This document shows positions 2,945 to 13,114 of a DNA stretch of 64,000 nucleotides, one piece after another (within the stretch, counting starts at the first letter, position 1; each line of letters starts with the position of its first letter). The stretch spans positions 3,162,001-3,226,000 of the forward strand of contig NZ_CP071463.1 of NCBI RefSeq assembly GCF_017352095.1, in the 5' to 3' direction. The translations under genes were made by a program, and so were the position numbers. Origin of the DNA: Natrinema longum (GTDB lineage: Archaea > Halobacteriota > Halobacteria > Halobacteriales > Natrialbaceae). The notes under the pieces are model-generated. The model did no database searches. It had not been told where the DNA came from and was given only the letters and a program-made list of their open reading frames with translations.

Positions 2945-3385
2945 TCAGTCGGTCGTTGCGTCCATTTCGTCGGTCGTTTCCACAAGCGTCTCGTCGCCGG
3001 CCATCGCGTGGAGGTGTTCGAGCAGGAGTCCGAACCCCTCCGGCTTGACCCAGGTCGTGACCGCGCCTTCGTCTTCGACCTCCTCGAGGACCTGTTCCTC
3101 GTCCCGGACCGGGACGGAGAACTCGACCGGCTGGTCGAAGCGATCCTCGTTTTCGGCGATCAGGTGCTGTACTTCCTCGAGTTCGCGACGGACGTATTCG
3201 AACGAATCCATCGACTCGGTGTCGTCGCCGATGACGAACCGACGGGTTTGCCCGTCGTCCAGGTCGAGTCTCACGACGCCGCCCTCGATGCGGTCGTCCT
3301 CGAGATACTCGGTCAGGACGTCGTCGAAGAAGTCAGTCGTCATCCGGTCGCCTCGCGGTTTCGACTCCGTACTGTCTGGCGTCAT
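2945..3385 (-). CDS. Unrecognised haloarchaeal acidic protein
   Basis: A 146-residue, highly acidic soluble protein with no signal peptide or membrane segment. It has a beta-rich middle (VVRLDLDDGQTRRFVIGDD) and a helical segment with many Glu. I do not recognise the family. The gene is real by codon usage and because a TATA box sits about 19-28 nt before its ATG. It is transcribed away from the heme d1 operon, and the 255-bp space between the two carries both promoters. Confidence 0.6.
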   Translation of the reverse strand: MTPDSTESKPRGDRMTTDFFDDVLTEYLEDDRIEGGVVRLDLDDGQTRRFVIGDDTESMDSFEYVRRELEEVQHLIAENEDRFDQPVEFSVPVRDEEQVLEEVEDEGAVTTWVKPEGFGLLLEHLHAMAGDETLVETTDEMDATTD

Positions 3386-3413: not shown

Positions 3414-3596
3414 GTTTGTACCGCCGAATCCTACGCGGTGGGAACTGTTGCCGATCGGGTTCGGCGGCAAAAATCGGTGTAGCGCTCGTTAGGGTGCGGT
3501 ATTTCGCAGCCACGGATATCGTGTCGGACCGACGGAAAAAACCCCCGACGAACATCTTCCCGTGACCTCTCACGAACTCGAAACGTTGCTGCCCGG

Positions 3597-3640: not shown

Positions 3641-5482
3641 ATGTCACAATCCGAGTCAGCGGCCCAGTCGATGGCGGACCACGAGGAACGGATCAAGCGC
3701 CACTTGAGCGCTTCGAGAGAGATCGCGAAGAACCTGGAGTTCGACGACGAGCTCCACTTCGAGATGGGGCTCCCGAGTCCGGGTCGTCGGACGTTCCTGA
3801 AGACGAGCGGCATCGTGGCGGCGTCGGCAGCACTCGCGGGCTGTGCCAGTAACGAAGACGACGATTCGCCGGGGCCGACGGACGACGACGAGGATGGGGA
3901 CTCGTCGAACGAAGGGACATCGGACGCACAGCAAAGCGAGACCGTTCAGTTGTCGGCACATCAATACGAGTTCCAACCCCAGGAGATCCGAGTGGCTCCG
4001 AACACGGAACTCACCATCGAGTTCACGGAGTCGACCTTCGAGCAGAACTCGGACTTCAAATTCCACACGTTCTATCTCGAGGAGCCATACGACGTCGGGC
4101 CGGTCAATCTGCCCGAGAACACGGACGACGAGGTGATCGATTCGGTCACGTTCGTCACCGACGAAGAGGGGACCTTCGACTTCGAGTGTAACATTTACTG
4201 TGGGGACGGACACGCCCAGATGAACGGCCAACTGTACGTCGTTCCCGAGGGCGAGTCCGTCGACAAGGTCGACTTCACCGACATGGAGACGCTGAAAGAG
4301 CGTCACGAGGTCCTCAAAGAAGAGAGCGAACTGGCCCAGGAGCCCCAACACGACCTCGATCTGCGGGACATCATGGTCGTCACCGAGCGCAACAACGCCT
4401 CGGTCGCGATGATCGATACGGTCAACGACGAGCTCATGGAGCGGGTCGAGAACGTGGGGAAGGCGATCCACGTTCACGACTTCCATCCCGAACTGCCCGA
4501 GCAGACACGCGAGGGTGCGTACGTGTATACGCAATCGCGCCAGGGGGAGATGTACAAGATCGATCTGTTCGACTTCGAACGGGTCGCGGTCGCCGACGCC
4601 GGGACGGACGCCCGGGACATCGCCGTCTCCAGAGACGGCAACTACGTGATCGGCGGGTTCTACAACCCGAACCACCTCGTCATCTGCGACGCAGACACGA
4701 TGGAGCCGATCAAGCGGATCCCGACCCACACCGTCAACCCCGACGGCGAGAGCCTCGGGAGCCGGGTCTGCTCGCTGTACGACGTTCCCCACGAAGGGCT
4801 GTTCCTCGCGGGACTCAAGGAGGGCGGCGAAGTGTGGCTCATCGACTACACGCAGGAGGAGTTCCCGGTCGTGGCGACCATCGAATGCGGTCGAACCCTC
4901 CACGACGGGTTCTTCACGGACGACGGTCGCTACTTCATGATCGCCTCGCAGACGGACAACCAGATGGACATCATCGACACGCAAGAACGGAGCCACGTCG
5001 CCGCGATTCCGATGGACGGGGTGCCACACCCCGGTCCCGGCGCGCTCTACCCCGACGAGGACCTCGCCTTTACCACCCACGCGGGCGCGCCGAGCGTCGG
5101 CGTCTGGAACACGGAGACCTGGGAGGCCGAGCAGATGATCGACGTCAGGGGCTCGGGACTGTTCATCCGGAAACACGAGAACAGCGACTACGTCTGGGCC
5201 GACGTCATCCTCACCGACAGCGAGGACGACGCCTACGTCTACACGATCGATCCCGAGACCCTCGAGGTCGACCAGGAGATCGACTGCAGCCAGTGGGGTG
5301 CCGCCGCCGCGATCCACCCCGAGTTCAGCCGCGACGGCGAGAAAGTGTACATCAGCGTCTGGATGGGCGAGAACGAATCGATCCTCGTGTTCGATCCGAA
5401 CACGGGCGAACTGCTGACCCAGATCGAGGATCTGCTGGCACCGACCGGGAAGTTCCTCGGCGTCCGCGCTGAGGGGCACTGA
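3641..5482 (+). CDS. CuA cupredoxin-cytochrome d1 fusion (NirS-like), Tat lipoprotein
   Basis: A 613-residue exported protein. After a 47-residue cytoplasmic extension come a Tat motif (R49-R50-T-F-L-K) and a lipobox Cys68, so it should be anchored outside the membrane. Residues about 85-205 form a cupredoxin with a complete CuA site: H142 (FKFHTF) and C183-x3-C187-x3-H191-x2-M194. Residues about 246-613 match the eight-bladed d1 propeller of cytochrome cd1 nitrite reductase: proximal His candidate H277 (KAIHVH), active-site His in LHDG (H421) and PHPG (H463), then LFIRKHENSDY, ISVWMGENES and APTGKF. No heme c motif CxxCH is present; CuA appears to replace the cytochrome c domain. A d1-heme nitrite (NO-forming) reductase or related oxidoreductase is inferred. 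It is the first gene of an operon with NirF-like, NirJ-like and HemA genes. Confidence 0.85.
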   Translation: MSQSESAAQSMADHEERIKRHLSASREIAKNLEFDDELHFEMGLPSPGRRTFLKTSGIVAASAALAGCASNEDDDSPGPTDDDEDGDSSNEGTSDAQQSETVQLSAHQYEFQPQEIRVAPNTELTIEFTESTFEQNSDFKFHTFYLEEPYDVGPVNLPENTDDEVIDSVTFVTDEEGTFDFECNIYCGDGHAQMNGQLYVVPEGESVDKVDFTDMETLKERHEVLKEESELAQEPQHDLDLRDIMVVTERNNASVAMIDTVNDELMERVENVGKAIHVHDFHPELPEQTREGAYVYTQSRQGEMYKIDLFDFERVAVADAGTDARDIAVSRDGNYVIGGFYNPNHLVICDADTMEPIKRIPTHTVNPDGESLGSRVCSLYDVPHEGLFLAGLKEGGEVWLIDYTQEEFPVVATIECGRTLHDGFFTDDGRYFMIASQTDNQMDIIDTQERSHVAAIPMDGVPHPGPGALYPDEDLAFTTHAGAPSVGVWNTETWEAEQMIDVRGSGLFIRKHENSDYVWADVILTDSEDDAYVYTIDPETLEVDQEIDCSQWGAAAAIHPEFSRDGEKVYISVWMGENESILVFDPNTGELLTQIEDLLAPTGKFLGVRAEGH

Positions 5483-5508
5483 TCGTACCCGACCGTTCCC
5501 ACAGGCAC

Positions 5509-6654
5509 ATGTCCGACACCCACACCGAAACGACGGCAACGACCCGGCACGCACGGGGGCCGCTCGCGCTCGTCAAGCACCTCCGCGGAGCGGGGTTTAC
5601 CGTGATCGATGCGGATAGCCACGAGCCGATCGGCCGAGTCGGCGAGGGACGCCAGCCTCACGCGCTCGCAGCCCACCCGGGCGGACGCTGGGCGTACGTC
5701 CCCTACATGGCGTCGAACGCGCTCGAGGTCGTCGATCTCCGGACGCTCTCCGTCGCGGACCGCGTCGAGACGGTCGGCACTGCGCCGGTGGGAGCGGTCC
5801 TGACCCGGACCGGACGGTACCTGTTCGTCAGCACCTACGGAGGGCTTCCCGGGGACGATCGGCCCGGACTCGCCGTCTTCCGTACGGACGGCGAACAGGT
5901 CGAACTGGTCGCGGAACTCCCGACGGGGAAGGCCGCCGGGCTGACGGTCGACGTCCGGAACGACGTCTGGGTCGCGCTGAAAGACGCCGACGAGGTCGTC
6001 CGCATCTCGGGGACGCCGCCGTTCGCGGAGCGCGACCGGTTCGCGGTCGCCGGTGGTCCCCAGGACCTGGCGTACGACCCGGCGTACGGACTGCTGGGCG
6101 TGAACGACGTCGACGCTGGAAGCGTCACGTTCGTGGACGCACTCGAGGCATCGGTGCTCGGCTCGGTTCCGGTTCCGAACCCGCGAGGGGGGACGGCCGT
6201 TCCGGCCAGCGATCGGTGGTTCGCCGGGAACACCGACGGAGACGGCGTCACGGTAGTCGACGTGAACGCGGTTCGACGCGACGACACCGATTCGACGGCC
6301 GTCGAACACGTCCCGCTGGGAACGGCCACCGCCTTTACCGACGCGACCCCCGACGGGGCGCTGGTCGCCGTCGACGCGTACGACGACGACCGCGTCACGT
6401 TCCTCGAGCCGGCGACCCTCGAGATCGTCGCGCGGGTCGAAACTGGCCCGACGCCCCGTCATCCGCAGTTCAGCGCGGACGGGCGGGTCTGTTACGTTCC
6501 GAGCGTCGACGGCGACGCGGTGACCGTCATCGATGTCGACGCGATCCGCTCGACGGGTGATTCCCCCCACGATCCGATCGTGACGAAGATAGATTTGCCC
6601 GACGGGGCCGGGCCTGCGGGCTGTTTCCGTACCGACAGAGGGAGATATCCATGA
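5509..6654 (+). CDS. NirF-like beta-propeller protein 1
   Basis: A 381-residue YVTN/NirF-type propeller with repeated blades such as GRWAYVPYMASNALEVVDL and GRYLFVSTYGG. It has no signal peptide, so it should be cytoplasmic. H51 in GEGRQPHALAAHPG sits where NirS and NirF carry their blade-1 His. NirF acts late in heme d1 synthesis in denitrifying bacteria (dihydro-heme d1 dehydrogenase). Here the role is inferred from fold, this His and position between the d1 protein and the NirJ-like gene. The gene starts 26 nt after the CuA-d1 stop and overlaps the next gene by ATGA. A heme chaperone role is an alternative. Confidence 0.7.
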   Translation: MSDTHTETTATTRHARGPLALVKHLRGAGFTVIDADSHEPIGRVGEGRQPHALAAHPGGRWAYVPYMASNALEVVDLRTLSVADRVETVGTAPVGAVLTRTGRYLFVSTYGGLPGDDRPGLAVFRTDGEQVELVAELPTGKAAGLTVDVRNDVWVALKDADEVVRISGTPPFAERDRFAVAGGPQDLAYDPAYGLLGVNDVDAGSVTFVDALEASVLGSVPVPNPRGGTAVPASDRWFAGNTDGDGVTVVDVNAVRRDDTDSTAVEHVPLGTATAFTDATPDGALVAVDAYDDDRVTFLEPATLEIVARVETGPTPRHPQFSADGRVCYVPSVDGDAVTVIDVDAIRSTGDSPHDPIVTKIDLPDGAGPAGCFRTDRGRYP

Positions 6655-7793
6655 CTTTCGATACCGATAGCGCAGCCGTCGCGACCGAAGGATCGTCCCG
6701 CACGCCGACGATCGTCAAGAACGCCGCGAGCAGCCACTTCAGCGCGGTCGCCCTCTCCGAGGGTGAGGTCCTCGCAGCGGTCGGCGAGGGACGGTACCCG
6801 CACACGGCGCTGTTCCATCCGGACGCACCGGTCGCGTACCTGCTGTACATCGCCAGCGCCCATCTCGAAGTCCTCGACCTCGAGCGCCTGGAGACCGTCC
6901 AGCGCGTCGACCGGCTCGGAACGATGCCCGTCGGGAGCGCGCTGGGCCCCGGCGGCGACTCGCTGTTCGTCGGGACTGCGGTCGACCTGCCGACGGCGTC
7001 CGATCCGGGCGTTATCGCGTTCGATATCGACGAGGACGGCCGACTCGAGCCTGCGGGCACGCGGCCGCTCTCGCGGAGTTCCGGCATGCGGATCGGCCCG
7101 GACGACCGCCTCTACGTGGGCCAGAAGATCGAGGACGAAGTCGCCGTGCTCGGCGCGGACCCCCGGCTCGAGGTCGAGGCGCGGATCCCCGTCGGCGCGG
7201 AGCCACACGACCTGTACGTACTCGACGACGACGGGCTCCTGGTCGTCAACCACGCCGGCGGCTCGTCGGCCTCCTTCGTCGACGCGGCCGCCGAGCGGGT
7301 CCGCTGTACCGCCGAGACGGGGACGAATCCGCACGGTTTCGCCGTCGCGGACGGGCCCGAGTATCGGTACGGGCTGTTCCCGGCCCGCGAGGACGACCGC
7401 GTCGCCGTCGTCGATCTCGAGGCGGCCGCGGCGGGCGAGGCGTCGTCGACCGAAACGCTGCTCGACGTCGAAACGACGACCGGTTTCGCCGGCGTGAGGC
7501 CGGACGGCCGCTACGCCATCGTCGACTCCTACGACGAGCAGTTCGTGACGATCCTGAACCTGACCGACCTGTCCGTCGCCGGTCGCGTCGAGATCGGCGG
7601 GGAACCGCTCCACGTCGTCTTCGGCCCCGACGGCGAGGAGTGTTACGTCGGGAACATGGAGCGGACCGACCTCGCGGTGCTCGACACGCGACCGCTTGCC
7701 GACGATCGTCCGGCGGACGTCGCAGTCGGCCGCCGAATCGACGGGTTCGGGGAGAAACCGAGCGGCATCTTCCGCCCGGAGGTGGACCAATGA
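6651..7793 (+). CDS. NirF-like beta-propeller protein 2
   Basis: A 380-residue paralog of the preceding propeller, also without a signal peptide. Its His is at the same residue number, H51, in GEGRYPHTALFHP. Blades such as VAYLLYIASAHLEVLDL, PHDLYVLDDDGLLVVNHAGG and EPLHVVFGPDGEECYVGN are readable. ATGA overlaps at both ends show translational coupling with its neighbours. Two adjacent copies suggest a heterodimer or a split of NirF-type and NirN-type tasks. Inferred to act in heme d1 maturation or handover. Confidence 0.7.
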   Translation: MTFDTDSAAVATEGSSRTPTIVKNAASSHFSAVALSEGEVLAAVGEGRYPHTALFHPDAPVAYLLYIASAHLEVLDLERLETVQRVDRLGTMPVGSALGPGGDSLFVGTAVDLPTASDPGVIAFDIDEDGRLEPAGTRPLSRSSGMRIGPDDRLYVGQKIEDEVAVLGADPRLEVEARIPVGAEPHDLYVLDDDGLLVVNHAGGSSASFVDAAAERVRCTAETGTNPHGFAVADGPEYRYGLFPAREDDRVAVVDLEAAAAGEASSTETLLDVETTTGFAGVRPDGRYAIVDSYDEQFVTILNLTDLSVAGRVEIGGEPLHVVFGPDGEECYVGNMERTDLAVLDTRPLADDRPADVAVGRRIDGFGEKPSGIFRPEVDQ

Positions 7794-9010
7794 TCGATCT
7801 CACACGACTCATCAGAGGACTCGACAACCGACCGGAACAGATCCGTTACGAGAAGCGCCGCGCGAGCGACGCCCTCGTCCCGCTGGTCGTCTGGAATACG
7901 ACCCCCGCGTGCAACCTGCGGTGCAAGCACTGCTACTTCGGGGCCTGCGACGAGCGCGACAGCGAGGAGCTGTCGACCGCCGAGGCCAAGGCCTTCATCG
8001 ACTCGCTGGCCGCGGTGAACGTGCCGGTACTCGTCTTTAGCGGCGGGGAACCGTTCTTCCGCGACGACATCGCCGAACTCACCCGGTACGCCTCGGAACG
8101 GGGATTGCGTCCGATCGCCTCGAGCAACGGGACCTTCCTCACCGAGGAACGCGCCCGAGACGTGGCCGACGCGGGGATGCAGTACGTCGGCGTCTCCCTG
8201 GACGGCGTCGGGGCGACGAACGACGAGTTCCGCGGCGTCGACGGGGCCTTCGAGCGAGCCCGCAACGGACTCCGCAACGCCCGTGACGCCGGGATGGGGA
8301 CGGGGATCCGGTGTACGATGACCCAGGGAACCGTCGACGACGTCCCCGCGGTGATCGATCTCGCCGTCGAGGAGGGGATCGACCGCGTCAACCTCTTTCA
8401 CCTCATCTACTCCGGACGCGGCGGCGACATCACCGACGCCGACCTATCGTTCGAGCGCACGCGTGAAATCGTGGACTACCTCTACGAGCGAACCAAAACG
8501 CTCGCCGAGACCCACCCCGACATGCAGATCCTGACTGCCGGCAACTACGCCGACGCGGTCTACCTCTACCACCGGATTCGAGAGGACATGCCGGCCCACG
8601 CCGAACGGGCTCGGGAACTCCTGTTCGACGACGGCCCCGGTCGAGTGGTCAAGAACGGCGACGCCGGCCCGAAGGTCGTCAACGTCGACCACCGCGGCGA
8701 CGTCCACCCGAGCATGTTCCTCTCGCAGTACACGCTCGGGAACGTCCGCGAACAGTGCCTCGACGAGATCCTCGCCGAAAGCGATCTCTGGTCCGAGCTG
8801 GCCGAGCCGACCGACCACCTGAACGGGAAATGCGGCCGCTGTCCGTGGAAGGAGGTCTGTGGCGGCAACTCCCGTGCCCGCGCCGCCGCGGTCTACGACG
8901 ACCTCTGGGCCGAGGATCCGCGGTGTTATCTCACCGACGCCGAGTACAGGACGGCGGAACTCCCGCCCGAACACACGCCTCGGGTCGACGCGCCCGTAGT
9001 ACTTGAGTAG
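7790..9010 (+). CDS. nirJ: Radical SAM heme d1 synthesis protein, NirJ-like
   Basis: A 406-residue radical SAM enzyme. C41-x3-C45-x2-C48 (CNLRCKHC) binds the SAM cluster, and FSGGEPF is the SAM-binding GGE motif. The C-terminal auxiliary cluster set is C348-x2-C351-x5-C357-x21-C379, with the sequence VCGGNSRARA. In my recollection CGGN/CNGNTRVRA is typical of NirJ, while AhbC and AhbD have CGGCRARA. Further NirJ-like landmarks are YSGRG, AGNYADA and LGNVRE with a VHP segment. NirJ removes two propionates from didecarboxysiroheme. AhbC of the alternative heme b pathway is the main competitor; the d1 operon context favours NirJ. The gene overlaps its upstream neighbour (ATGA) and is 4 nt from hemA. 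Confidence 0.8.
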   Translation: MIDLTRLIRGLDNRPEQIRYEKRRASDALVPLVVWNTTPACNLRCKHCYFGACDERDSEELSTAEAKAFIDSLAAVNVPVLVFSGGEPFFRDDIAELTRYASERGLRPIASSNGTFLTEERARDVADAGMQYVGVSLDGVGATNDEFRGVDGAFERARNGLRNARDAGMGTGIRCTMTQGTVDDVPAVIDLAVEEGIDRVNLFHLIYSGRGGDITDADLSFERTREIVDYLYERTKTLAETHPDMQILTAGNYADAVYLYHRIREDMPAHAERARELLFDDGPGRVVKNGDAGPKVVNVDHRGDVHPSMFLSQYTLGNVREQCLDEILAESDLWSELAEPTDHLNGKCGRCPWKEVCGGNSRARAAAVYDDLWAEDPRCYLTDAEYRTAELPPEHTPRVDAPVVLE

Positions 9011-9014
9011 ACAG

Positions 9015-10313
9015 ATGCACGCACCCGACTTGGCACCCACCGACGCGAGAACCGACCTCGACTCGGCGACGGTCGCGACGATGCCAAAGAGCGTCCGCCG
9101 GCTCGCGTGTTGCCGGGTCAGTTGCGCCACGCACTCGACGGACGAGTTGGGAGCGATCCGGCCGGCCGAACCGCTCGAGGTTGCCCGTCGGATCGCAGGA
9201 CACGACCGCGTCACTGAGGCGGTCGTCCTCTCGACGTGCAACCGGGTGGAGGCGTACTGCAGCACTCGGACGCCGGCGGATCGGGACGAGGGGCTTCGCG
9301 TCGCACGCGAGGCGCTCGGCGATCCCGACGGCGCGCGGACGGAGACGGGGCTCGACGTCGTCGACCACCTGTTCCGCGTCGCCTGCGGACTCGAGAGCAC
9401 CGTCGTCGGCGAGGCTCACGTCCTCGGACAGCTCCGTCGAACGTTCGAAACGGCACTCGAGGCGGGGCTCGCCGGCGGCGTGGTGACGCGGACGGCGGAC
9501 GCAGCCGTCTCGGTGGGACGGCGCTGCCGCGACGAGACCGACATCAACGAGGGGACGGTCAGCTACGGGAGTGCGACCTGTGAGCGACTCGAGGCTCGCG
9601 GCCGAGTGCCGGACCGCCTCGTCGTCGTCGGCGCGGGTGAGATGGCGACCTCGGTCGCGAAGGCAGCCACGCATCGATGGGAGAGTCGCGTCGACGTCGT
9701 CAACCGCTCGAGCGCGCCGGAGATAGTCACGGCGGACGGGAAATACTGGCCGCTCGAGTCGCTGGGAGCGGCGATAGCCGACGCGGACGCCGTCGTGACG
9801 GCGACGGGCGCGGCGGACCCAGTGGTGACCGCCGAAACGATGCGGGAACTCGAACGCGAGACGGTCGTCGTCGACCTGGCGAACCCGCCGGACGTCGCCG
9901 AGGCGGTTCGACACTCCGCCGTTCCGGTCATGGATCTCGACGAAATCCAGGCCGGGATCGAGGCGGCCGTCTCGGGTCGGCGGGACGCGATCCCGGCAGT
10001 CGAAGCTGCGGTGACCGACGCGGTCGCGTCGTTCGTCGATCGGGAACGCGAGAACCGCGCCGAGGACACGCTCCGGGGCCTCCACCGCACTGCGGCGACG
10101 ATTCGTGAGCGCGAACTCGAGCAGGCGCGGACCCGCCTCGAGAACGGGGACGACCCCGAGGCCGTCTTGGACGACTTCGCCAGCGCGCTGACCGGGTCGC
10201 TCCTCGGGACGCCGACCGAACGCCTTCGGACGGCTGCACGCGACGGCGACGATGCGATCATCGAGGCCACACACCGACTCTTCGATCTCGACGCCGACCT
10301 CGAGGAGTCGTGA
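9015..10313 (+). CDS. hemA: Glutamyl-tRNA reductase
   Basis: A 432-residue glutamyl-tRNA reductase, the NADPH enzyme making glutamate-1-semialdehyde for tetrapyrroles. The nucleophile Cys75 is in LSTCNRVEAY, the HVLGQLRRTFE and GSATCERLE segments follow, the Rossmann motif is VVVGAGEMA, and a C-terminal dimerisation domain ends the protein. The N-terminus (ACCRVSCATHSTDELGA) looks unlike the usual haloarchaeal HemA start. This, with its place as last gene of the heme d1 operon, suggests a second, pathway-dedicated copy. ATG 9015 is preferred to the in-frame TTG at 9003. Confidence 0.9.
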   Translation: MHAPDLAPTDARTDLDSATVATMPKSVRRLACCRVSCATHSTDELGAIRPAEPLEVARRIAGHDRVTEAVVLSTCNRVEAYCSTRTPADRDEGLRVAREALGDPDGARTETGLDVVDHLFRVACGLESTVVGEAHVLGQLRRTFETALEAGLAGGVVTRTADAAVSVGRRCRDETDINEGTVSYGSATCERLEARGRVPDRLVVVGAGEMATSVAKAATHRWESRVDVVNRSSAPEIVTADGKYWPLESLGAAIADADAVVTATGAADPVVTAETMRELERETVVVDLANPPDVAEAVRHSAVPVMDLDEIQAGIEAAVSGRRDAIPAVEAAVTDAVASFVDRERENRAEDTLRGLHRTAATIRERELEQARTRLENGDDPEAVLDDFASALTGSLLGTPTERLRTAARDGDDAIIEATHRLFDLDADLEES

Positions 10314-10511: not shown

Positions 10512-11465
10512 ATGGATACCCACGACGGTCGCGGTCGGAGTCCCTCGAGGAGCCGTCGGGAGTTACTCGCTGGTGCGGGCGGCCTCACCGCGGGACTCGT
10601 CGGGACTGCGGGTTGTCTCGGCAGCACCGACGGGGTTCGGGTGCTCGCTGCGGGCAGCCTTGCTATCGCCCTCGAAGAGCGGATCGGCCCGGCGTTCGAA
10701 GCCGAGTCCGACGTCCACTACGAGGGCGAATATCACGGGACCAACGCGGTGTTGCGGCTGGTCGAGGACGGAACGAAGTATCCGGACGTCGTGATCGGAG
10801 CCGACATCGAACTCCTGCGGGATCGACTCTACCCCGACCACGCCGACTGGGACGCCTCGTTCGCGGCCAACGAGGTCGTGATCGCCTACGAACCGGAGAC
10901 CGAGCTGGGGGCGTGTCTCGAGACCGATCGCCCGTGGTACGAGTGTTTCGGCGACGCCGACGAGGGGGCGATCGCGATCAGTGATCCGGATCTCGACCCG
11001 CTTGGCTATCGGGCGCTCCTCCTCTTCGAACTCGCCGAACGGGAACACGGGCTCGACGGGTTTCGCGACGCGATGGCCGACACAGTCGCTTACGTTCCCG
11101 ACGAGACGCAACTGCTCGCCGATGTCGAGAGCGGGAATCGCGCCTGTGCGGTCGCCTACAGCAATATGGCGGCCGAGCGTGAGGTCGCCGTCCGCCGGCT
11201 CTCCGACGCGTACAACTTCGGTGCGCCCGCCGCCGCCGACCGGTACGCGCAGGCGAGTTACACGACCGCTGATGGCCACACTGTCGAGGGATCGCCCGTC
11301 GTCTACAACGCGACGGTCCGTACCGACGCGGACGATCCCGTGGCAGGACGGGAGTTCGTCGCGTTCCTCCTCGAGAACGACGACCTGCTCACCGAGTCCG
11401 GACTGCGCGTCGACGACTCGTTGCCGCGATTTCACGGCGATCCGCCGGAGGCGATCAAGCCGTGA
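10512..11465 (+). CDS. wtpA: Tungstate/molybdate-type ABC binding lipoprotein
   Basis: A 317-residue exported substrate-binding protein with an N-terminal twin Arg (SRRELLAGAGG) and lipobox AGC, so Tat-exported and lipid-anchored. The mature part opens VRVLAAGSLAIALEERIGPAFE, the pattern of the WtpA/ModA family (AGSL at the oxyanion site). It continues with GTNAVLRLVEDGTKYPDVVIGAD, DPDLDPLGYRALL and the late AVAYSNMAAE segment. Tungstate versus molybdate cannot be told by reading. GTGA overlap with the permease gene shows one operon. Molybdopterin enzymes such as nitrate reductase would need this substrate, which fits the neighbouring d1 operon. Confidence 0.8.
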   Translation: MDTHDGRGRSPSRSRRELLAGAGGLTAGLVGTAGCLGSTDGVRVLAAGSLAIALEERIGPAFEAESDVHYEGEYHGTNAVLRLVEDGTKYPDVVIGADIELLRDRLYPDHADWDASFAANEVVIAYEPETELGACLETDRPWYECFGDADEGAIAISDPDLDPLGYRALLLFELAEREHGLDGFRDAMADTVAYVPDETQLLADVESGNRACAVAYSNMAAEREVAVRRLSDAYNFGAPAAADRYAQASYTTADGHTVEGSPVVYNATVRTDADDPVAGREFVAFLLENDDLLTESGLRVDDSLPRFHGDPPEAIKP

Positions 11466-12301
11466 GCAGCTCCAGTCCTGAGGGCCCTGATGACCATCGT
11501 CCCCGTTTTACTGCTAGCTTCGAGTGGCTCCCGACGGGGCTGGCCGTCCCGGCGCTACTCGGCGCAGTATTGCTCGCGTACTTCGTCGTCCCCGTCGCCG
11601 TCTTTCTGCTTCGAATGCGGGCGGTCGATCTCGTCGCCGGGCTCACGGATCCGACGATTCGGGACGCGATCAGAACCTCGCTGGTGACGGCCCCGGTTTC
11701 GACGACCATCGCGACCGTCTTCGGCGTCCCGCTGGCGTACGTCCTCTCGCGGGGCTCGTTTCGCGGCAAGCGGCTGGTCGAAGCGCTCGTCTTGCTCCCG
11801 CTCGTCGTCCCGCCGATCGTCGGCGGCGTGATGTTGCTGACCATCGTCGGTCGATACACGCCGATCGGCGCGGCCGCCGTGGCGCTCGGGATGCCGTTGA
11901 CGGGAAGCCACGCCGGCGTCGTCCTCGCCCAGACGTTCGTCGCCGCGCCGTTTCTCGTCGTTACCGCCCGCGCGGGCTTCGACGGCGTCGATCCCCGCCT
12001 CGAGGAAGCCGCGCGGACGATGGGGTACGGGCCACTGCGAACGATACGACTGGTGTCGCTGCCGCTCGCGCGCAACGCCATCGCCGCCGGGATCGTACTG
12101 ACGTTCGTCCGGGCGATCGGCGAGTTCGGCGCGACGATGATGGTCGCGTATTCACCGCGGACCATGCCCGTTCAGATCCGCGTCTCGTTTATCGCTCGTG
12201 GGATCGACGCCATCGTCCCCATCGCGCTCGCCTTGCTCGCGATCGCCGTGATCGTCGTCGTCGCCGTCCAGTTGCTGGTCGGAACGCCCAAGCAACACTG
12301 A
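11462..12301 (+). CDS. wtpB: Tungstate/molybdate-type ABC permease
   Basis: A 279-residue BPD-type permease with about six membrane segments. The coupling-helix region EEAARTMGYGPLRTIRLVSLPLARNAI and the GEFGATMMVA segment are characteristic of ModB/WtpB/CysW permeases. GTG start overlaps the stop of the binding protein (GTGA). No ATPase gene follows; an ATPase encoded elsewhere is needed. The first 25 residues are a polar cytoplasmic tail. Confidence 0.85.
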   Translation: MSSSSPEGPDDHRPRFTASFEWLPTGLAVPALLGAVLLAYFVVPVAVFLLRMRAVDLVAGLTDPTIRDAIRTSLVTAPVSTTIATVFGVPLAYVLSRGSFRGKRLVEALVLLPLVVPPIVGGVMLLTIVGRYTPIGAAAVALGMPLTGSHAGVVLAQTFVAAPFLVVTARAGFDGVDPRLEEAARTMGYGPLRTIRLVSLPLARNAIAAGIVLTFVRAIGEFGATMMVAYSPRTMPVQIRVSFIARGIDAIVPIALALLAIAVIVVVAVQLLVGTPKQH

Positions 12302-12445
12302 GACGGACCGCATGATACGTCGTCGTGTGGCGCTTGTCGTCTCCTCCCTCGAACCCATCAAAACGCGTGTAATTCGCTCTGAGCGGTTCTAAGTGCTTTG
12401 GAAGTGGGGTTATGGAGTTCGTCGTCATATCCATGGGTGAGACTC

Positions 12446-13114
12446 ATGACATCCATCGCAGACATCGAGATCCCGGCTGACGGAACCGGAACGGGCGAGC
12501 TGTTCGCGGCTGTCCCCTCCCTGACGTGCGAAATGGAACGGGTAATCGCCTCGAGCGGCCACGGGCTCTGGCTGTCGGGGCCCTCGCGCTCGGAGATCGA
12601 AGCGGCCCTCGACGAGGCCGCCGCGATCGGCACGTATTCCCGGATCAGCAGCGACGAGGACCGGTGGCTGTACGATATCGAGTTCGAACCCGACACCGTC
12701 GATCCGTTCGAGCTCACCCTCGAGGAAGGCGGGACGGTACTGAGCGCCGCCGCGTCGAACGGCACGTGGCTGCTCACCGTCCGCGTGGTCGACCGCGAGA
12801 GCGTGAGTTCGCTGTACGACCGCCTCGACGACAACGACGTCACGCCGACGATCGTCCGGCTTTTCGATCTCGCCGAGGAGAGCCACTCCCAGTGTGGGCT
12901 GACGGCCCGCCAGTACGAAACGCTGGTCGCAGCGATCGATCACGGCTACTTCGAGATCCCCCGCGAGGTCTCGATGCAGGAACTGTCCGAGGAACTGGGT
13001 ATCTCCCACCAGGCCCTCTCCGAGCGACTGCGCCGGGCCTACCGCGCACTCGTCACGTCCGAACTCAACGTGACCGAAGAAGAGACCGCCGCACCGCCGA
13101 TCCCGTCGAACTGA
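12446..13114 (+). CDS. Bat-type HTH_10 transcriptional regulator
   Basis: A 222-residue regulator. The C-terminal domain (about residues 150-207) is a clear HTH_10 domain: CGLTARQYETLVAAIDHGYF, then ELSEELGISHQALSERLRRA. The N-terminal 140 residues resemble the sensor-like domain found in many haloarchaeal bacterio-opsin activator homologs. Only two Cys are visible, so the Cys-rich sensor of the denitrification regulator NarO is absent. Target genes are unknown; the adjacent wtpAB and d1 operons are candidates by position only. Confidence 0.8.
   Translation: MTSIADIEIPADGTGTGELFAAVPSLTCEMERVIASSGHGLWLSGPSRSEIEAALDEAAAIGTYSRISSDEDRWLYDIEFEPDTVDPFELTLEEGGTVLSAAASNGTWLLTVRVVDRESVSSLYDRLDDNDVTPTIVRLFDLAEESHSQCGLTARQYETLVAAIDHGYFEIPREVSMQELSEELGISHQALSERLRRAYRALVTSELNVTEEETAAPPIPSN

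Follow-up and report, generated by a model that had tools for sequence, protein, structure and literature searches.

A conserved five-gene cluster in haloarchaea encodes a CuA-d1 protein and forms a probable heme d1 module

We analysed a window of 64 kb (positions 3162001-3226000) from the single-contig, 3,588,874-base genome of Natrinema longum, in which a first-pass annotation, made from the DNA letters, had placed a heme d1 operon of five genes. Inspection of the open reading frames in the window showed five plus-strand frames at 3641-10313 that overlap or nearly touch (Table 1). This bore out the proposed coordinates and the series of same-direction genes with ATGA overlaps or short gaps. 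Specifically, ATGA overlaps were found at the junctions of genes 2 and 3 and of genes 3 and 4, a gap of 26 bp separates genes 1 and 2, and the start chosen for hemA decides whether genes 4 and 5 share 8 bp or have 4 bp between them. In Pfam, the Cytochrom_D1 domain (cut-off 25.5) matched gene 1 with 255 bits over residues 240-607 and gene 2 with 38 bits, both above the cut-off, and gene 3 with 18.6 bits, below it. Gene 4 matched Radical_SAM and SPASM, while gene 5 matched GlutR_N, Shikimate_DH and GlutR_dimer.

Table 1. Features of the five-gene cluster, in positions of the window
Feature	Position	Strand	Length	Remark
CuA-d1 protein gene (gene 1)	3641..5482	+	613 aa	
Propeller A (gene 2)	5509..6654	+	381 aa	NirF-like fold
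Propeller B (gene 3)	6651..7793	+	380 aa	NirF is the closest solved fold
Radical S-adenosylmethionine (SAM)/SPASM enzyme (gene 4)	7790..9010	+	406 aa	NirJ/AhbC superfamily
Second glutamyl-tRNA reductase, hemA (gene 5)	9003 (TTG) or 9015 (ATG) to 10313	+		
Candidate operator CGAACATCTTCC	3549..3560	+		at -92 from the CuA-d1 gene; two mismatches from CGAAYATDKTYG

In a survey of 392 genomes of the order, the CuA-d1 protein was detected in 14 genomes, which belong to 5 of 95 genera and to three families; Natrinema, Halobiforma, Halorubrum and Natronomonas are among the carriers. In all 13 other carriers, genes 1-4 form an unbroken same-strand series, which is followed by hemA in 12 of the 13. The gene order, for which the first-pass annotation had proposed a survey of haloarchaeal genomes, is therefore kept, and this contiguity shows that the arrangement is not due to chance. 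Furthermore, propeller A was found in exactly the same 14 of the 392 genomes as the CuA-d1 protein, three weak matches (34.9-36.8 bits) having been set aside as generic propellers. We conclude that the five-gene arrangement is a real, conserved and specific module. The CuA-d1 protein of the window is 85% identical to that of a genome from another family (G328) and 72% identical to that of a genome from the third family (G067), while identities to other genera of the host's own family amount to 50-55%. Since identity across families exceeds identity within the family, and since the main division is the same in the gene trees, these sequences fit a transfer of the operon as a block. A viral origin was rejected, as a scan of viral contigs gave no relative. 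No bacterial CuA-d1 relative was found in plasmids, where only the d1 part was matched, or in a scan of genome contigs, in which all 10 loci were haloarchaeal and of which the two peptide patterns may miss bacterial ones. A d1 survey of the phylum matched 6 of 392 genomes, five of them known carriers. The sixth, G682 from elsewhere in the phylum (L143), has an ordinary cytochrome cd1 NirS with CAGCH, which reflects either transfer or contamination.

The CuA-d1 protein consists of a long N-region, a twin-arginine translocation (Tat) signal with a lipobox-like LAGC, a CuA cupredoxin domain and an eight-bladed d1 domain. Its matches in the PDB were NirN, NirS and NirF, and phmmer aligned the d1 domain over its full length with NirN and NirS (E about 1e-40 to 1e-36). 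Profile comparison placed NirS (E about 1e-63) ahead of NirN (1e-45) and NirF (1e-26). We aligned the proteins of 11 of the 14 carriers, which reach down to about 50% identity. In all 11, the proximal and catalytic histidines of NirS are invariant, namely proximal His277, distal His421 (LHDG) and distal His463 (PHPG). The first distal position is thus occupied by His, as in NirS, unlike the Tyr of NirF and the Asp of NirN, which argues for a d1 domain of the catalytic type found in NirS. The N-terminal cytochrome c of NirS is lacking, however: the CXXCH motif of heme c occurs in none of the 11 CuA-d1 proteins, as opposed to CAGCH in all seven reference NirS proteins. Instead, the CuA ligand set His142, C183-X3-C187-X3-H191-X2-M194 is invariant in all 11, and its CX3CX3HX2M loop with the upstream His is that of the CuA cupredoxins of COX2, NosZ and eNOR; the Pfam domain Cupredoxin_1 reached 19.1 bits, below its cut-off of 27. 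Judged by these residues, a full CuA site stands in the place of the heme c domain of NirS. The Tat motif RRTFLK lies at 49 and LAGC at 65. The alignment shows no variation at R49, R50, A66, G67 and C68, but with strict patterns the Tat motif went undetected in 1 of 11 proteins and the lipobox in 3 of 11. The sequence suggests a Tat-exported lipoprotein. Altogether, the CuA-d1 architecture read in the first pass held for gene 1. The label L-NosZ (NF052460) was rejected at 50.2 bits against a cut-off of 700, as were the quinohemoprotein and pyrroloquinoline quinone (PQQ)-propeller labels from NCBIfam, all far below cut-off.

A second d1-domain protein of about 420 amino acids is encoded in 8 of the 14 carriers and in none of the 378 other genomes, as would be expected if the operon supplies its cofactor. 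This protein (L017-L024, for example L017:1450-2706) has both catalytic histidines and is without CuA, CXXCH and signal features. Its site on a plasmid of Natrinema thermotolerans (L108) has no listed gene.

The two propellers are 33% identical to each other and form one clade of their own in the tree, not grouped with NirF; the propeller and radical SAM trees were quick searches with long-branch warnings. AlphaFold models, for which 13 (propeller A) and 12 (propeller B) of the 14 sequences were aligned, were confident, with predicted local distance difference test values (pLDDT) of 90.7 and 92.5, respectively. For both models, the top Foldseek matches were NirN, NirF and NirS, with template modelling (TM) scores of 0.73-0.82 by query length, while other proteins among the matches listed reached at most 0.63 for propeller A and 0.68 for propeller B. 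NirF was the best match of propeller B, and both propellers scored 0.75-0.76 against NirF 6tv2. The predicted propellers thus have the eight-bladed d1-type fold of NirF, a shared fold that shows no function by itself. Like NirF and NirS, both propellers conserve the proximal histidine, His51, and the distal PxD motif. The distal pair of NirF (Tyr, His) is not kept, the positions being occupied by Gln185 and Arg226 in propeller A and by His186 and His228 in propeller B. No protein of the operon combines, as NirN does, Asp at the first distal position with a cytochrome part fused to the N-terminus. Signal peptide features were seen in neither propeller. The earlier description of two propellers of the NirS/NirF/NirN type found support in the predicted folds, the proximal His and, for propeller A, the occurrence in the same genomes as the CuA-d1 protein.

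Conceivably, the propellers could be unrelated maturation or scaffold proteins of the generic YVTN kind and not d1-heme proteins. In favour of this, the sequence profiles (13 of the 14 propeller B sequences in the set, the split one of G140 being left out) ranked NirF, for both propellers, behind 1l0q, a propeller of the generic YVTN kind, and behind hydrazine synthase beta. All NCBIfam matches were to generic propellers, below their cut-offs, and in tblastn propeller A had no match among plasmids, plasmid-borne NirF and NirN included. Sequence evidence alone for the identity of the propellers is therefore weak. In structural comparison with VIA-align, propeller A gave a Z of about 40 with NirS, 36.3 with NirF (root-mean-square deviation 2.5, 341 residues aligned) and 36.0 with NirN (2.6, 340), but also 36.1 with a designed eight-bladed propeller (2.1, 311) and 34.7 with another eight-bladed propeller. 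The values for propeller B were 39.7 with NirS (2.3, 343), 35.4 with NirN (2.6, 342), 34.9 with NirF (2.6, 338) and 32.9 with the designed propeller (2.4, 312). On these models, Z sets NirF and NirN only modestly apart from other eight-bladed propellers. We nevertheless regard generic propellers as very improbable, given the Foldseek ranking of NirN, NirF and NirS, the conserved proximal His and PxD motif, and the confinement of propeller A to the genomes that carry the CuA-d1 protein.

The radical SAM enzyme carries the cluster motifs CX3CX2C and CX2CX5CX21C. These agree with the motifs given for NirJ in the accessible part of PMC10548856 (CX3CX2C and CX2CX5CX20-21C) and place the enzyme in the NirJ/AhbC superfamily, within which the cluster motif does not tell NirJ from AhbC. 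Gene 4 scored 375 bits to TIGR04347 (cut-off 525), 365 to NirJ1 (TIGR04054; 650), 360 to AhbC (TIGR04546; 650) and 336.7 to NirJ (TIGR04051; 515.45), the last a family to which two reference NirJ proteins scored 592 and 596. Since it stays below all four cut-offs, its sequence points to a subfamily of its own between AhbC and NirJ. The earlier label "NirJ-like" is thus appropriate for the Radical_SAM and SPASM domains and the superfamily motifs, but not by the NirJ cut-off (337 of 515). That gene 4 performs the NirJ step is what its genomic context would imply. The greater nearness to TIGR04347, NirJ1 and AhbC than to NirJ would also suit a different account, according to which gene 4 and hemA are duplicated members of the Ahb heme b route that serve general heme supply in anaerobic cells, with the d1 protein merely co-regulated. 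This account is highly unlikely in our view. Among 27 genomes used for presence comparisons (14 carriers and 13 non-carriers), the operon-type enzyme was present in all carriers and in no non-carrier, while a separate paralogue scoring more than 400 bits to NirJ1 was present in 21 of the 27. In the window's genome, this paralogue scores 740 bits to TIGR04347, above the cut-off, and the propellers come with the operon enzyme. A member of TIGR04347 (L093:1459-2670, minus strand) has an intact CX3CX2C although the NCBIfam name is "pseudo-SAM", and may be the haloarchaeal AhbC; on a Halarchaeum plasmid (L124), the gene comes after a small candidate gene for a ribosomally synthesized and post-translationally modified peptide (RiPP).

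Gene 5 scored 240.8 bits to TIGR01035, above the cut-off of 209.55. Two hemA copies were present in 13 of the 14 operon genomes and one copy in all 13 genomes without the operon. The score and the restriction of a second hemA to carriers support the proposal that the operon HemA is a dedicated precursor supply. The exception among carriers, G273, has no hemA in the operon; it also has six AhbAB-type domains, not four. The designation of the operon as complete did not stand. No NirE and no NirDLGH/AhbAB was found in the five-gene block, a genome search for SUMT/NirE not having been made, and the other, main hemA of the window's genome adjoins a two-domain AhbA/AhbB protein and a CysG N-terminal protein, so that the AhbAB and CysG-type siroheme functions lie together elsewhere. 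All 14 carriers and 12 of 13 non-carriers have AhbAB domains, and siroheme decarboxylation is therefore probably common to heme b synthesis and the d1 module. This is in agreement with the earlier suggestion that the missing steps are shared with the siroheme-based heme route, as far as the AhbAB step is concerned.

The cluster is associated with genes of denitrification. eNOR (more than 900 bits) was present in 13 of 14 carriers and 4 of 13 non-carriers (Fisher p 0.001), and NosZ in 10 of 14 and 3 of 13, respectively (p 0.02), with all NosZ scores below the family cut-off (513-546 of 625 bits). NirK above cut-off was found in 13 of 14 carriers, with fragments in the 14th, and in 6 of 13 non-carriers. 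In four carriers (G211, G347, G140 and G380), no more than about 6 kb separates the eNOR genes from the CuA-d1 gene; a Sco gene adjoins the CuA-d1 gene in the last three, and a gene for a copper P-type ATPase is near it in the first three. For Sco and the ATPase, one member per family was scanned and the others were assigned by clustering. The identity of eNOR is indicated by GHGTQQ in subunit I, as opposed to GHPVVY in the oxidases of relatives, and by CX3CX3HX2M in subunit II; the Tyr-to-Gln change is given as the eNOR signature in the accessible part of PMC8756737. The genome search for nirK that had been proposed was successful in the window's genome, where a region at about 78.5-85 kb of the same contig holds NirK, eNOR, Sco and a plastocyanin-type protein.

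The motif CGAAYATDKTYG occurs in denitrification promoters of Haloferax mediterranei, where its mutation lowered nos and nor promoter activity, according to the part of PMC10062603 that is accessible. A related sequence, CGAACAT-N-TTC[CA], was found at -89 to -92 in 9 of the 14 operons, across three families and with 1-2 mismatches to the published motif. Among 202 other upstream regions, 22 reached two mismatches and none reached one. In addition, the window's genome has a perfect copy at the Sco gene that neighbours NirK. The operator match is weak and only suggestive support for a link to denitrification. In a loose palindrome test, the CuA-d1 upstreams reached 7-9 of 10 and 99 of the 202 others reached 8 or more; since this did not separate the upstreams, we confine the result to the published motif at a set distance.

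Together, these findings make it likely that the five genes form a dedicated heme d1 module for a NirS-like nitrite reductase (Nir) that is fed by CuA instead of heme c. From the architecture, residues, synteny, co-occurrence and genomic link to eNOR that the sequences display, we infer a scheme in which the identity of the cofactor, each enzymatic step, the place of assembly, the activity and the electron donor are all conditional. The extra HemA would raise the tetrapyrrole supply, and the siroheme genes of the cell together with AhbAB would provide 12,18-didecarboxysiroheme, from which the operon radical SAM enzyme would strip the ring A and B propionates, as NirJ does. In the cytoplasm, the two signal-less propellers would complete or ferry the d1 heme and insert it into the CuA-d1 protein; the latter would then be Tat-exported in the folded state and probably lipid-anchored. 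Outside, CuA, probably with the help of Sco, would receive electrons from a halocyanin-type donor and pass them to d1. This would reduce nitrite to nitric oxide (NO) beside NirK, and eNOR, itself CuA-dependent, or qNor would remove the NO. Since NirK is also present in carriers, the d1 enzyme would be an extra nitrite reductase and not a replacement. The first-pass contrast with accounts of NirK alone is thus upheld, but the d1 route is an addition to NirK, which 13 of the 14 carriers retain, and not an alternative.

A more far-reaching proposal, which we hold to be doubtful, is that the archaeal d1 pathway is distinct from the bacterial one. In that case the cofactor, which may differ from bacterial heme d1, would be assembled and inserted ahead of Tat export by two paralogous propellers of the cytoplasm and a NirJ/AhbC-like enzyme that forms a lineage of its own. 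The module would serve a CuA-d1 Nir followed by a CuA-type eNOR, taking nitrite to N2O via copper carriers alone, with no cytochrome c.

Several observations weigh against the proposed heme d1 module for nitrite reduction, in addition to the profile and Z rankings of the propellers. Gene 4 is not assignable to NirJ on its sequence, and in a small tree (8 of the 14 operon proteins) NirJ lies outside its clade. The co-occurrence tests make no correction for common descent, and most carriers are of one genus. The operator match of the window, with two mismatches, is no better than that of 22 of the 202 other upstream regions. qNor (PF22085) was not associated with the operon (12 of 14 carriers and 9 of 13 non-carriers, p 0.38), and NarG at E <= 1e-30 was found in 10 of the 27 genomes, in none above cut-off, and not in the window's genome at that threshold. 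Moreover, every carrier also has NirK, in one case as fragments, which leaves the need for a second Nir in question. The NarG and NirK results, together with the occurrence in 8 of the 14 carriers of a further d1 protein without an electron-transfer domain, could indicate that the CuA-d1 protein binds a d1-type heme for a main job other than respiratory nitrite reduction, being an NO- or oxygen-reacting, detoxifying or signalling protein while NirK respires. We consider such a role unlikely, because the NirS catalytic His and a full CuA site for electron entry are kept and because the genomic and co-occurrence data link the protein to eNOR and NosZ.

Behind the operon, at 10512-13111 of the window, lie genes for a WtpA-like tungstate/molybdate ATP-binding cassette (ABC) binding protein, a permease and a Bat-type HTH_10 regulator, and similar genes sit at the same place in G154 (L027). 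In five Natrinema genomes (L025, L028-L031), the alpha and beta subunits and the chaperone of a type II dimethyl sulfoxide (DMSO)-reductase-family enzyme are encoded directly 3' of the d1 operon, at the hemA end. Upstream, a divergent gene at 2945-3385 (minus strand) encodes a 146-amino-acid protein with no Pfam or NCBIfam match; it is found upstream of the CuA-d1 gene in 8 of the 13 other carriers. In G140, propeller B is in two frames (L036:11127-12211), owing to a real frameshift or a sequence error.

A d1 option in haloarchaea had been called little described in the first pass, which is true in part. A 2021 survey reported only NirK in haloarchaea, according to the accessible part of PMC8400030. 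However, PMC11052009 lists in its Table 6 both nirK and nirS for 21 archaeal genomes, in which the same genera are represented, and PMC10999283 (2024), in its accessible part, mentions a Halobacteriota NirS-like protein that was set aside from the phylogeny because it lacks cytochrome c. For the CuA domain, the operon and the propellers, no description was found in the open PMC literature. If the CuA-d1 protein does work as a nitrite reductase, nirS counts at hypersaline sites would be too low, some haloarchaea would have two kinds of Nir and likely a second route from nitrite to gas, and the electron-entry heme c of cd1 enzymes would be replaceable by CuA. The operon also offers new homologues for the NirJ reaction and the NirF role in d1 synthesis, both called unclear in the accessible part of PMC10548856.

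The NirS-like protein of PMC10999283 probably belongs to the CuA-d1 group or is the second d1 protein, both being without cytochrome c; the accessible part of that account mentions neither a CuA domain nor an operon, and no propellers, hemA or radical SAM enzyme. The haloarchaeal operon resembles the bacterial nir operon (nirS, E, F, DL, G, H, J, N) in the three d1 histidines, in its propellers and in a radical SAM enzyme from the NirJ superfamily. In contrast to bacterial NirS with its heme c, the CuA-d1 protein has CuA, no CXXCH and a Tat signal with a lipobox-like motif, and the operon is without NirE and NirDLGH but has a second hemA. The propellers share with NirF (6tv2) and NirN (6rtd) the eight-bladed d1 propeller fold and the proximal His, at about 20% identity, but have Gln/Arg (A) or His/His (B) at the distal positions, which are Tyr/His in NirF and Asp/His in NirN. 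Furthermore, NirF is described as periplasmic in the title of Bali 2010, whereas the haloarchaeal propellers have no signal peptide. Thermus likewise has few nir genes, nirSJM, with a single radical SAM gene among them (PMC7694296, accessible part), but Thermus NirS has CXXCH, its radical SAM enzyme is annotated as TIGR04053 and no propeller gene is listed beside it. Finally, in the accessible part of PMC8756737, the d1 domain of Chloroflexi NirS is likewise joined to extra redox domains, in some cases an N-terminal cupredoxin; there the cupredoxin is added to cytochrome c domains, whereas in the CuA-d1 protein CuA replaces them.

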